A stretch of DNA of 64,000 nt from Haloarcula salina. Its GTDB lineage: Archaea; Halobacteriota; Halobacteria; Halobacteriales; Haloarculaceae. This document shows, piece after piece, positions 20,694 to 25,236 of the stretch. The stretch lies in NCBI RefSeq assembly GCF_010119195.1, contig NZ_WRXL01000001.1:186001-250000 (forward strand). Reading direction: 5' to 3'. The position numbers and the translations under genes are program-made. The notes under the pieces are model-generated. The model had not been told where the DNA came from. It searched no databases and was given only the letters and a program-made list of their open reading frames with translations. Every line of letters starts with the position of its first letter. The stretch's first letter is position 1.

Positions 20694-21146
20694 TCAGACG
20701 CACTGCGCGTTCAGTGTCCGGTCGAGTGCGACGCCGGTTTCGGCTCCCGTCACCGTCACAGTGACAGTGACGACCGTCTCGGTGGTCGAGTTCGCGCAGG
20801 CGACCGCGCCGGAGACGGGCGCTCGCTCGCCGCTTCCGAGCGAGTCCGGCGCGCTGACCGATGTAAGGTTCAGACGGCGGTCGCCGGCGGATTCCGCCGC
20901 CGTCACATTGAGTTCGACCGCACCGTCGAGTCGATTCGCGACGAGAGCGAGCGTCACGTTCGCCGACGAATTGCGTTCGACAGCGACCGGTCGCGCCTGG
21001 ACGCCGACGAGCGCCTCCTCGTCGTCGACGACGGCGACGCGGACCTCCCGCTCGGCCGAGACTGCAGAGTACGCGCCAGTCTGCGAGACGAGTGCGGTCG
21101 ACGCGGTGATCGCCGCCAGCGCCAGCGTCACCTGCCAGAGGTTCAC
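20694..21146 (-). CDS. Camelysin/TasA-like exported protein (DUF1102-like), GTG start
   Basis: A 150-residue exported protein starting at GTG 21146, whose GTGA overlaps the stop of the HTH-TM gene. One N-terminal hydrophobic segment (TLALAAITASTALVSQTG) is followed at once by AYSAVSAEREVRVAV. This matches the signature that ends the hydrophobic segment of the DUF1102-like protein at 22056. The mature part is beta-rich with N-glycosylation sequons (NSSANVT, NVT, NLT, NST) and two Cys (VACANS, AQCV). Probably a cell-surface or fibre component. Confidence 0.65.
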   Translation of the reverse strand: MNLWQVTLALAAITASTALVSQTGAYSAVSAEREVRVAVVDDEEALVGVQARPVAVERNSSANVTLALVANRLDGAVELNVTAAESAGDRRLNLTSVSAPDSLGSGERAPVSGAVACANSTTETVVTVTVTVTGAETGVALDRTLNAQCV

Positions 21147-21730
21147 CGCCGGTTCACCTCCGGCGGTTCCTCGGTACTGCCGAGTCGGAGACGAGAGTAG
21201 TTCAGGAAGGTGTGGACGCCGGCAGAGAGCAAGAGCGCAACCGACACGGCCATCGCCAGCGACACGCCGGAAACCGGCCACAGGTTCCCCCAGGAGATCA
21301 GCGAGAGCGCGACAGCGATGCCGCCGAGCCCCATGTAGTAGAGACTCCACGGGATGTCGGCCCCGGGAACCACGTCCAGATACACCTGCAGGCCGGCGAC
21401 GCGGTCATCGAGTTCGACCGTCTCACGAGTCGAATCGTAGCGCACGAATCCCGCGTCGTCCATTTTCGGCAAATGATGCTGATGCAACGCCGTCTTCACT
21501 CGCTTGGTCTCCGCTGAGGTGAGCTCCGGAACCGGTTTCTCGTTCTCCCAGGCGGCCACCCGCTCGGCGAGCTCCCTGAGATACACCTCGCGTTGCTGTT
21601 GCTTCAGGTAGTGAAAGACGTACCGCCGCCGCGTGTTGCTCAGCACCTCGAATACCTGTTCCTCCGTCAGCCCTCGATTTCCGTCCTGTCCACCACGTGC
21701 CCGAGACGAGTCTATCAGTGCCTCACTCAT
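21143..21730 (-). CDS. Membrane-anchored HTH regulator (DUF7344-like)
   Basis: A 195-residue protein with an N-terminal winged helix (EEQVFEVLSNTRRRYVFHYL, ELAERVAAWENE, KRVKTALHQHHLPKMDDAGF) and two C-terminal membrane helices (about residues 131-150 and 153-172). The layout is that of the haloarchaeal DUF7344 group, which pairs with surface-protein genes. It is cotranscribed with the camelysin-like gene (4-base overlap) and divergent from the DUF1102-like gene, so it probably regulates this locus. Confidence 0.82.
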   Translation of the reverse strand: MSEALIDSSRARGGQDGNRGLTEEQVFEVLSNTRRRYVFHYLKQQQREVYLRELAERVAAWENEKPVPELTSAETKRVKTALHQHHLPKMDDAGFVRYDSTRETVELDDRVAGLQVYLDVVPGADIPWSLYYMGLGGIAVALSLISWGNLWPVSGVSLAMAVSVALLLSAGVHTFLNYSRLRLGSTEEPPEVNRR

Positions 21731-22055
21731 GCGATGATGCCACCACTCCGCGACCGCACTGTCACCCTCGGAACCCGGCGATATAGTTAGTGAATCTACA
21801 TCTAAAAATAATCCAATACTATCGATAGTGCAGGACCCGCTATTCTATGGGCATGGAGAGTAAGGCCTGATTATTCCGGCCCAGAGTCTCTTTGCGCACC
21901 GAAATGACCCATTCCAGCGACGCAATCCGCCTTTGCACTGTGGCCCCTGTGTATACCAAAGACGTGACACGACGAGGGCCCTCACGAGCGCGCCCCTGCC
22001 GTGGTGTCGGTCTCGCGACTCTGTCGTCCGGGCGTGCACGGAGAAATATACGACC
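21731..22055. promoter_or_regulatory. Divergent control region of the TasA-like locus
   Basis: These 325 bases separate the HTH-TM gene from the DUF1102-like gene and hold no convincing gene. An AT-rich stretch (21780-21830) contains CTAAAAATAATCC and the perfect 12-bp palindrome ACTATCGATAGT at 21818-21829. A second AT-rich element (GAAATATAC, 22042-22050) lies too close to the ATG at 22056 to be its TATA box with normal spacing, and a GTGTATAC (21951-21958) would fit a leadered transcript. Confidence 0.55.
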
Positions 22056-22685
22056 ATGCAACGACGCAAATTCCTCGTCGGAATGGGATCGCTCGCCGCC
22101 GGATCGGCGGCCGCAATGGGTACAGGTGCGTTTTCGATTGTAAGCGCTGGCCGGGACATGAACGTGAATGTTACCGGAGACCAACAGGCGTACCTTCGAC
22201 TCGATCCCTCGATAAGTCAGTACGGATCCATAAACAGTGACGGCCAGATGGTCTTGCAGTTTAACGGTTCTAACGGCCAAAACGGTGCTGGAATAAATGA
22301 CGAGGCCAATACGCTGATACAGAACGTCTTCCGAATCGAAAATCAAGGGACGAATAGTATTAACGTCGTTCTCACCGGCCTAGATACCGATGCAGGCGGT
22401 GATGGTAACGGCGTCGATCCGATCACAGTCTACTGGACTGATGATGAAGTCGACGAGAATTCACCAGGATATGGCGAGATGTCTGTAATGAGTGGATCAC
22501 CGAATCCACTTGGTGACGAGAGTTACGGAACAAGCACGGCTCTCCCAGTGTTAGCACCGGGTGACGATATATACGTGCACATCGAGTTCTATCTGAGTGA
22601 CTCCGATACGCTCAACGATGTGAAAACGAATCCCGGCGATATTCCAGAGGAACTCAGTATCTACGCGCAAGGATACAACAACTGA
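22056..22685 (+). CDS. TasA/camelysin-like exported protein (DUF1102-like)
   Basis: A 209-residue exported protein starting MQRRKFLVGMGSLAAGSAAA. The signal-like segment ends GTGAFSIVSAGRDMNVNV, typical of haloarchaeal DUF1102 proteins related to Bacillus camelysin/TasA, whose mature subunits form beta-rich matrix fibres. The mature part has repeated beta-strand patterns (NVFRIENQGTNSINVVLTGL; VLAPGDDIYVHIEFYLSD) and no Cys. GC content is clearly lower than in its neighbours. The downstream SipW-like peptidase is the likely processing enzyme. Confidence 0.8.
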   Translation: MQRRKFLVGMGSLAAGSAAAMGTGAFSIVSAGRDMNVNVTGDQQAYLRLDPSISQYGSINSDGQMVLQFNGSNGQNGAGINDEANTLIQNVFRIENQGTNSINVVLTGLDTDAGGDGNGVDPITVYWTDDEVDENSPGYGEMSVMSGSPNPLGDESYGTSTALPVLAPGDDIYVHIEFYLSDSDTLNDVKTNPGDIPEELSIYAQGYNN

Positions 22686-22800
22686 GAAGATCCTGCATTT
22701 TATTACTGGCCTGAATCAACACATAACCCACATTTTTCTCAGATCAAAATACAGAATGTGTTCCAGTTACCAAAATCGGCGGTCGTAAGCAGATCATAGT

Positions 22801-22808
22801 GAATAAAT
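22801..22808 (+). promoter_or_regulatory. TATA-like element of SipW-like gene
   Basis: GAATAAAT is centred about 29 bases before the ATG at 22834, so the peptidase gene probably has its own leaderless promoter in the AT-rich spacer after the DUF1102-like gene. Confidence 0.5.
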
Positions 22809-22833
22809 TGAATTCCGTACGTTACGCGAATAG

Positions 22834-23973
22834 ATGGCACTCACATCGCGCTTGGGGGCATTACTCTACGCTCTCGCCGTTTTGGCTGTGATATTTCTCG
22901 TCGTTGGCCAACTCCTCGGCCAGCCGATTCTCCTCGGGTTCGTTACCTCCGGCAGCATGGAGCCCACCCTCGACGAGGGAGACGGATTCGTCGCGATTCC
23001 GGCCGCCGTCGCTGACCCGGTCGAAGAAGGCGACGTGGTAGTGTTTCGCGCCGAGGAGATACAGGGCGGTGGTCTGACAACCCATCGAGTCGTAGAAGAG
23101 ACGGATCGGGGATACATCACGAAAGGCGACGCCAATCCGTTCACCGATCAGGACTCGGACGAACCGCCGGTGAAAGACGAACAGGTCGTGGCCGTCGTCT
23201 GGCGACCGAACGGGGAGGTACTCGCGATTCCCGGTGTCGGGGCGGTCGTCACTGGAACTCAAGACGCGCTCCAAACGGTCCAGGTCCACATCGCCGCGGC
23301 ACTCGGAACCCGCTCCCTACTAGGCGCACAGGGACTCGCCTACCTCTTGTTCGCGCTCTCGATAGCGCTCTACGCCGTGGATGCCTGGCGCGATAGGGGC
23401 CGAAACCGGACTACACGTGACCGCACGCGACAGTCCGGAACCAGCGCTCGCCTGCTCGTCGGCGTCTTCGCAGTGCTGCTTGTCCTCGGCGCGACGGCGG
23501 CGATGGTCGTCCCGGCCGGGCCGACAGAGTTCGGTATTGTGAGCGCCGAACGCGACTCGCCCGGCCAGCGCGTCATCGAGCAGGGGACCACGGAGTCGAC
23601 GACCTACCCGGTCGGCAACGGCGGCGCCCTCCCGGTGGTGGTCTTTCTCGACCCCGGCGACGAGAACGTGGACGTCCAGCCACGGGAACTCAGGGTCGGA
23701 CCGCGGTCCGTCGAGAACGCCACACTCACGCTCTCCGCGCCACCGGAGACGGGCTACTACCGCTACTTCGTCACGCAGCATCGCTACCTCGCGCTGTTAC
23801 CACAGGACCACATACGCGCGCTCTATCACCTCCACCCCTGGGCACCGATCGTCGTCATCGACGCGATGGTGGGCGTGCCGTTCTACCTCGTCGGCGTATC
23901 GCTGGTCGGCAGCGGTCGGGTCCGCGACCGCTCACGGAGCGCGGGCCCCTCGCTGTGGGCACGCTTTCGGTGA
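22834..23973 (+). CDS. SipW-like signal peptidase I with C-terminal exported domain
   Basis: A 379-residue membrane protease. The N-terminal half is an ER/SipW-type signal peptidase: TM helix (about 10-33), catalytic Ser41 in TSGSMEPTL, His84 in GLTTHRVVEE replacing the bacterial Lys, and Asp99 in KGDANPFTDQD. Two further membrane helices follow (about 163-182 and 205-225). The second ends GPTEFGIVSAERDSPGQ, echoing the signature of the presumed substrates. A beta-rich domain (about 235-320) and a final TM close the protein. Its neighbours predict a dedicated peptidase. Confidence 0.85.
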   Translation: MALTSRLGALLYALAVLAVIFLVVGQLLGQPILLGFVTSGSMEPTLDEGDGFVAIPAAVADPVEEGDVVVFRAEEIQGGGLTTHRVVEETDRGYITKGDANPFTDQDSDEPPVKDEQVVAVVWRPNGEVLAIPGVGAVVTGTQDALQTVQVHIAAALGTRSLLGAQGLAYLLFALSIALYAVDAWRDRGRNRTTRDRTRQSGTSARLLVGVFAVLLVLGATAAMVVPAGPTEFGIVSAERDSPGQRVIEQGTTESTTYPVGNGGALPVVVFLDPGDENVDVQPRELRVGPRSVENATLTLSAPPETGYYRYFVTQHRYLALLPQDHIRALYHLHPWAPIVVIDAMVGVPFYLVGVSLVGSGRVRDRSRSAGPSLWARFR

Positions 23974-24019
23974 CCGGCCGGTTGCAGACGTGCGTTACTC
24001 TCTCGGACGCGATATATTC

Positions 24020-24031
24020 CGAGTATAACAA
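24020..24031 (+). promoter_or_regulatory. AT-rich promoter element
   Basis: GAGTATAACAAA lies about 27-38 bases before the ATG at 24058 and contains a TATAAC core. A separate transcript for the DUF5305-like gene is likely. Confidence 0.45.
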
Positions 24032-24057
24032 AACGGGACGCTGTCACCTTACCTCTC

Positions 24058-25236
24058 ATGGGACACATGTGGCTCAGGGTGCGGGCAGTGCTGGACGACT
24101 GGTTCGCGGTCGCAGTCCTGGCACTCCTCATCGTGTCGGTCGCCGGTGGGTGGCTGACGTATACCGGACACGTCGATCCCGGGATGACGACGGAGCGCGA
24201 GACGGTCTCGGCGTGGGAGACGAACGGGACGTTCACCCACGCGGCAGTCGTCTCGGCGGAGAACCCGGTGTACGACGTGGGGACGGAACTGCGAGGCGAG
24301 TCGCTCTACCTCGACTCCATCGCGCCGGTCGTCGACGGGAGCTTCGTCTTCCGGTACGCGGCGACGGAGAGCGGGACGATCGACGTAAGCGTCGATCAGC
24401 ACCTCAGGAAGCGGAAGGTCGTCGAACGAGGGACCGGGACGGTAACGGTCTGGGAGACGATGGAGCCGCTCGGGAATCGGTCGGTCGGCGGCGTCGAACC
24501 GGACTCTCCGGTCCGAGTGCCGTTCACGGTGAACGTGACGGAGGAGCGCAACGAGTCGGGGCAAATCGACGACCGACTCGACAATCCGCCAGGCGAACTG
24601 CGTGTGGCCGTGGTCGCCACGGCGACGCTCTCGGGCACGGTAAACGGGCGCTCGGTCGAACAGACTGTCACGTACGAGATGCCCGTCGAATTCGACGGCG
24701 GGACCTACAGCCTCAACGGGACTGCGGCGACGGATCGACACGAGCGCACGCGGGTCGTCGAATCGCCGCGAGACCCCAGTCCGGTCCAGCGGGCAGGTGG
24801 CCCGGCGGTGCTCGGTCTCGCACTTCTGGGACTCGGGGGACTACTCGCCTCGCGGACGCGAAACGAACTCTCTCTGACGGAGACCGAACGGGCTCGGCTC
24901 GCGTTCGAGAGCGACCGGGAGTCCTTCGGGGAGTGGATCCACACGTTCGATCTGCCGGCGGTGGCTGAGGAACGACCTCGCGTCGAGGCGGCGACGCTCG
25001 GCGACCTCGTCGACTTCGCTATCGACACGGACAACAGCGTCCTCGCCGACCCCGACGGGGAGCGATACGTGGTACTCCACGACGGACACTGTTACGTGTA
25101 CGAACCGCCGACGACCGGAGGCGCGCCCGGAGAGCGGGCGACCAGCGGCGGCGACGGAATCGCCGGCCGACTCCGGTCGCTCGCTGGCCGGTCTGAATCC
25201 TCCGCTCGCGAACCGATCGAGGAAGACGGCGAATGA
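24058..25236 (+). CDS. DUF5305-like membrane protein of the TasA-like locus
   Basis: A 392-residue protein. An N-terminal membrane helix (about 17-35; FAVAVLALLIVSVAGGWLTY) is followed by a large extracellular beta-rich domain (about 40-240) with NGTF and NVTEERNES sequons. A second TM lies around 245-262, and a cytosolic tail includes VVLHDGHCYVYEPP. The HAAVVSAENPVYDVGTEL stretch fits the archaeal DUF5305 family as I remember it. An alternative ATG lies at 24067. Its position after the SipW-like gene suggests an accessory assembly or anchor role comparable to TapA; this is inference. Confidence 0.75.
   Translation: MGHMWLRVRAVLDDWFAVAVLALLIVSVAGGWLTYTGHVDPGMTTERETVSAWETNGTFTHAAVVSAENPVYDVGTELRGESLYLDSIAPVVDGSFVFRYAATESGTIDVSVDQHLRKRKVVERGTGTVTVWETMEPLGNRSVGGVEPDSPVRVPFTVNVTEERNESGQIDDRLDNPPGELRVAVVATATLSGTVNGRSVEQTVTYEMPVEFDGGTYSLNGTAATDRHERTRVVESPRDPSPVQRAGGPAVLGLALLGLGGLLASRTRNELSLTETERARLAFESDRESFGEWIHTFDLPAVAEERPRVEAATLGDLVDFAIDTDNSVLADPDGERYVVLHDGHCYVYEPPTTGGAPGERATSGGDGIAGRLRSLAGRSESSAREPIEEDGE

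Follow-up and report, generated by a model that had tools for sequence, protein, structure and literature searches.

A probable compact pilus locus of the Taf/Tafi type with an extended signal peptidase in Haloarcula salina

Taf/Tafi pili are a recently described archaeal type of pilus and relatives of bacterial biofilm fibres. The system is already known from a solved structure, PDB entry 9p0a ('Structure of Natrinema sp. J7-2 Tafi pilus'), and from curated family names; the literature library searched contained no paper on these pili. The bacterial fibre protein TasA is known to polymerise by donor-strand exchange, and for some fibres of archaea donor-strand complementation and a structural relationship to TasA have been described (PMC9674648). 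TasA-like fibres have to be assembled outside the cell with neither an ATP-driven machine nor an outer-membrane usher, which raises the question of their mechanism. Here we analysed five neighbouring genes of Haloarcula salina, located at 20694–25236 of a window of 64,000 nt (GCF_010119195.1, NZ_WRXL01000001.1, positions 186,001–250,000 of the forward strand; all coordinates are positions within this window), which code for a pilin-like protein, a TafC-like exported protein, a signal peptidase with a C-terminal extension, a DUF5305 membrane protein and a membrane-bound helix-turn-helix (HTH) regulator (Table 1). An earlier note on this DNA had proposed that the five genes form a self-contained fibre module with its own signal peptidase. 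All five reading frames were present and intact, with the starts of two refined, and the proposed module was supported by conserved linkage and by homology to 9p0a.

The pilin-like protein was homologous to 9p0a both by phmmer (E = 3.8e-13) and in a profile search of the PDB (E = 2.9e-31, spanning 174 profile positions), and the 9p0a pilin (182 residues searched) was matched at 100% in a genome that carries a homologous locus. In this Natrinema Tafi locus, the genes within about 9 kb code for a DUF7344 regulator (45% identity with its counterpart in the window), a pilin with the same signal and N-terminal motif (40% over 109 aa), a signal peptidase that shares the C-terminal region (45% over 313 aa), a DUF5305 protein (34% over 137 aa) and a TafF-like protein. 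As in the window, regulator, extended peptidase and DUF5305 stand in one cluster; the Natrinema locus differs in having the TafF-like protein, which is multi-domain (CARDB/immunoglobulin (Ig)), and in that the exported protein next to the regulator is larger. In a curated Taf locus of the same genus, TafC (542 bits), TafA (245 bits), TafE (222 bits) and TafF (567 bits) all scored above cut-off, and the adjoining HTH, peptidase and DUF5305 genes code for proteins 43, 40 and 32% identical to those of the window (31.5% over 352 aa for DUF5305). The same-genus Taf loci share with the window a TafC–HTH gene pair overlapping by 4 nt, pilins, the signal peptidase and DUF5305, whereas the window has no TafF, a single pilin instead of TafA and TafE, and different gene directions. 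Because the pilin is homologous to 9p0a and the same regulator, peptidase and DUF5305 stand beside both Tafi and curated Taf pilins, we consider it very likely, from sequence comparison, that these genes constitute a compact archaeal pilus locus of the Taf/Tafi type, which would form filaments. The earlier note's remark that such an arrangement has no proven function no longer holds in full, since the solved Tafi subunit is encoded in a homologous locus and NCBIfam has Taf fimbrial models for clusters of this type.

The gene content of the locus was strongly conserved across Halobacteria, examples being the loci of Halovenus carboxidivorans, Halovenus rubra, Salinigranum salinum and Halospeciosus flavus; in Halocatena salina, genes for a DUF1102 protein, a hypothetical protein, a signal peptidase I and a DUF5305 protein adjoin one another. 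Among 60 genomes, including that of Haloarcula salina, homologues of the pilin were found in 33, of the signal peptidase in 43 and of DUF5305 in 43. When loci were picked by their pilin match alone, 15 of 20 contained HTH regulator, pilin, peptidase and DUF5305 together. Counting full-length-like peptidase loci in the 59 relatives, the peptidase was present in 31 of the 32 pilin-positive genomes (Fisher p = 1e-7), which together with the linkage argues for clustering beyond chance, and DUF5305 was present in 38 of the 40 peptidase genomes; Fisher p-values are uncorrected for shared descent. Nine genomes had the peptidase and no pilin match, five of which (G003, G008, G015, G018 and G031) hold TafA-type pilins instead. 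The set that recurs with the pilins is small: the C-terminally extended signal peptidase, DUF5305 and the membrane HTH regulator. A complete haloarchaeal-type locus was also seen on PULR01000059.1 (L061), titled 'Mollicutes bacterium', which is in all likelihood an archaeal contig with a binning or labelling error.

The N-terminus of the pilin combines a twin-arginine translocation (Tat)-like signal (MQRRKFL) with a GTGAFS-VSA-R motif, and a twin-arginine motif was present at the start of all 54 pilins examined. The mean fraction of the commonest residue in these homologues was 0.69 for residues 1–24, 0.61 for residues 25–45 and 0.29 for residues 46–209; conservation of the signal region far beyond that of the mature part fits a dedicated export and processing route. 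The structure model of the pilin was beta-rich, and its top three fold matches, AbpA (7ueg), Tafi (9p0a) and a Sulfolobus thread (7pnb), are all archaeal filaments. The first two ranked highest (prob 0.99), with TM-scores of 0.33–0.42 on a model with a predicted local distance difference test (pLDDT) value of 58; for 7ueg, E was 1.2e-3 at 10% identity. A kinship to archaeal bundling pili, whose layout the earlier note had called analogous, is supported by 7ueg as best fold match of this low-confidence model. The two observations that would have refuted the proposal of that note did not occur: the gene order was conserved, and the top fold matches of the pilin model were AbpA and Tafi. The pilin gene and the gap that follows it (22056–22830) form an AT-rich island (GC about 0.47–0.53, compared with about 0.68 around it), which suggests that the pilin cassette has diversified or was exchanged recently.

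Several observations weigh against a Taf/Tafi-type pilus. Neither exported protein passed a Pfam cut-off, and both matched NCBIfam models below the equivalog cut-offs: the pilin reached 56.9 bits with TafE (E = 2.1e-15, cut-off 155) and 39.5 bits with TafA (E = 5.8e-10, cut-off 190), and the TafC-like protein 52.7 bits with TafC (E = 3.4e-14, cut-off 410). The solved Tafi pilin likewise scores under these cut-offs (77.3 and 53.1 bits), which therefore define a narrower subfamily. The pilin model is poor, and its fold search gave no match with E <= 0.001, TM-scores being 0.3–0.4; for some signal-peptidase loci no pilin was found nearby. TafF is absent from the window, and a search of the genome gave nothing convincing (best E 0.63); nor were further pilins of this family found there. 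Having a single pilin and lacking TafF, the locus could be reduced or without function, but its frames are intact. The same absences, the low-confidence fold model and the very variable mature part of the pilin would also suit exported proteins that are non-polymerising and surface- or S-layer-associated, the peptidase only processing them and no fibre being made. We regard this as unlikely, given the homology to a solved pilus subunit over 174 profile positions and the top fold matches, all of them archaeal filaments.

As a Taf/Tafi-type locus, the five genes represent a minimal variant with one pilin, one minor subunit and no TafF, about the smallest form seen. Genes of sister loci are missing, a TafF-like gene being present in 19 of 39 signal-peptidase loci, and the window could accordingly hold a Taf locus in decay, unable to form a pilus any more after the loss of TafF, rhomboid and extra pilins; with every frame intact, this is decidedly improbable. 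In the peptidase tree, moreover, the main split (100/97) set a clade of the Taf and Tafi loci apart from the clade that holds the window, whose peptidase clustered with those of three same-genus loci (99/95). All three likewise lack TafF and rhomboid and belong to a supported clade (98/91 and 99/95), which argues that the minimal form was inherited and kept. A rhomboid protease gene (GFSG motif) was found in 13 of the 39 peptidase loci, all 13 of which have a TafF-like gene, usually directly upstream of the rhomboid gene (for example L036:10688-12600, and 12 further loci). Many of the TafF-like proteins in these loci end in a Gly-Gly motif, a transmembrane (TM) stretch and Arg, which those of loci without rhomboid mostly do not, and one rhomboid was a weak rhombosortase match (E = 1.4e-3, below cut-off). 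This suggests that TafF-like protein and rhomboid are an archaeal sorting pair similar to rhombosortase/GlyGly-CTERM, anchoring the pilus in some subtypes; the pair is absent from the genome of Haloarcula salina, in which no convincing rhomboid homologue was detected.

The pilin-like protein might instead be a metalloprotease of the camelysin type, and the exported product an enzyme, as the camelysin/TasA family named in the earlier note and the suggested origin of TasA from camelysin (PMC9674648) might imply. This has a negligible chance of being true, there being no Peptidase_M73 match at E <= 1 in Pfam and no HExxH motif in the sequence. The earlier note had described the exported proteins as camelysin/DUF1102-like. 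No window protein matched DUF1102 or Peptidase_M73 in Pfam, but DUF1102 was matched by close homologues, and a DUF1102 search of the whole genome found nothing because the window pilin falls beneath the Pfam model. Direct membership in the TasA/camelysin family found no support, since TasA chains were absent from the profile matches in the PDB and from the 50 fold matches listed.

The signal peptidase scored 63.7 bits with the archaeal signal peptidase model TIGR02228 (cut-off 51.85) and was homologous to Sec11 (E = 2.8e-5). Its catalytic pair, Ser41 (22954–22956) and His84 (23083–23085), was invariant in ten aligned homologues, as in enzymes of the endoplasmic reticulum (ER)/archaeal type. 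The earlier note had called it a SipW-like Ser/His peptidase with an extra C-terminal domain; catalytic type and extra domain were confirmed, and strict SipW membership was not supported, as the SipW model itself (NF046067) gave 41.8 bits, under its cut-off of 190, with the C-terminal half falling outside the 189-residue model. For this half, AlphaFold2 (AF2) predicted a TM helix (residues 205–224), a beta-sandwich (about 227–322, pLDDT about 75–86 over most of the domain) and a second TM helix (337–358), and the domain was conserved throughout the ten sequences of the alignment and also in the peptidase of the Natrinema Tafi locus. Its fold matches were MSP/ASH/PapD-like Ig domains (best E = 4e-4), the chaperones CupB2, YadV, Caf1M and PapD ranking behind MSP/ASH (E = 3e-3 to 1e-2), and it is predicted to be a membrane-flanked Ig fold of the PapD/MSP type. 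A profile search of the PDB with the domain found no chaperone and no sequence relationship to solved ones; the matches obtained, repetitive armadillo designs and one weak match, were taken as spurious. Homology of the domain to the pilin was rejected (2% probability in a profile comparison); the peptidase segment EFGIVSAERD resembles FSIVSAGRD of the pilin, a short likeness possibly due to chance. We hypothesise that the domain is a tethered pilin chaperone or assembly platform, but the data agree just as well with an anchoring or structural function. It is conceivable, if rather doubtful, that the peptidase unites processing and assembly in a single chain, cutting the pilin, capping the freshly cleaved subunit with its Ig domain and passing it to the fibre by strand exchange; such a protein would do the work of the chaperone (TapA, PapD) as well as that of the usher in bacterial systems. 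Plasmid relatives of the extended peptidase adjoin DUF5305 and a PKD-domain protein in Haloarcula sinaiiensis (pHsi55, L109) and occur without DUF5305 in the stretch shown in Haloferax mediterranei (pHME505, L110); they may be either mobile copies or members of the same peptidase family with other substrates. A plasmid search with the 9p0a sequence gave no matches.

The TafC-like protein resembles TafC in its N-terminal region and lacks a twin arginine; its N-terminal half is a relative of the pilin (98.7% in a profile comparison), and its profile matched 9p0a (E = 1.3e-9). Its gene overlaps the HTH gene by 4 nt, an arrangement also present in L081, L083, L086 and L087. The predicted HTH regulator with TM segments was verified as a DUF7344 protein (106.8 bits, cut-off 27.8) with two TM helices, and the DUF5305 assignment stood well above its cut-off (171.1 bits, cut-off 29), with a predicted topology of N-terminal TM segment, beta ectodomain, C-terminal TM segment and cytoplasmic tail. 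The intergenic region shares blocks with three same-genus relatives (TAGTTAGTAA...TTACA, GTGTATACAAAAG and a leader), and upstream of the pilin gene GTGTATACAAAAG and the leader of about 90 nt were conserved across all four genomes; this part may contain an operator or TATA region at which the DUF7344 regulator acts. Scans for bacterial promoters and terminators and an Rfam search gave nothing above chance.

Taken as a Taf/Tafi-type pilus, the system may work as follows. The pilin would be exported, probably via Tat, and the membrane signal peptidase would cleave its conserved signal in the GTGAFS region, after which the mature pilins could polymerise by donor-strand complementation, as TasA does. 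The TafC-like protein may be a minor, tip or adapter subunit, the Ig-like domain of the peptidase and DUF5305 could provide a membrane-side chaperone, anchor or assembly platform, and the DUF7344 protein would control the divergent promoters. A role in adhesion or in a biofilm or matrix is possible. The less ordinary feature is the Ig domain of the peptidase. As about the smallest form seen, the locus lends itself to working out the mechanism by reconstitution and gene deletion in a group of archaea that is genetically tractable.

Table 1. Features of the Haloarcula salina locus, in window coordinates.
Feature	Position	Strand	Basis
TafC-like exported protein, minor pilin/adapter-like, 150 aa	20694..21146	-	GTG start at 21146
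DUF7344 HTH regulator with two C-terminal TM helices, 195 aa	21143..21730	-	PF24035 match
Divergent intergenic region	21731..22055		conserved blocks: TAGTTAGTAA...TTACA; GTGTATACAAAAG; leader
Pilin-like subunit, 209 aa, beta-rich	22056..22685	+	ATG start at 22056; 9p0a and TafE/TafA matches
Pilin signal peptide and mature N-terminus, residues 1-45	22056..22190	+	conservation in 54 homologues
Ser/His (archaeal/ER-type) signal peptidase with C-terminal extension, 379 aa	22834..23973	+	TIGR02228 above cut-off
Ig-like domain of signal peptidase, residues 227-322	23512..23799	+	AF2 model, fold matches
DUF5305 membrane protein, 392 aa	24058..25236	+	PF17231 match

Among other known systems, the bundling pili of Pyrobaculum provide in AbpA the best fold match of the pilin model; the two proteins share 10% identity and were compared by fold. 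The C-terminal domain of the peptidase resembles the Ig-like fold of the chaperones PapD, Caf1M and CupB2, from which it differs in being membrane-tethered, fused to a protease and without sequence similarity; the likeness, also found with MSP/ASH domains, is not evidence of descent. In outline, the locus is similar to tapA-sipW-tasA of Bacillus, which likewise combines an exported fibre subunit, a dedicated ER-type signal peptidase and an accessory subunit (PMC9674648), whereas its pilin has no TasA/M73 sequence match and carries a Tat-like signal, its peptidase has an extra domain, and its partners are DUF7344 and DUF5305 proteins.

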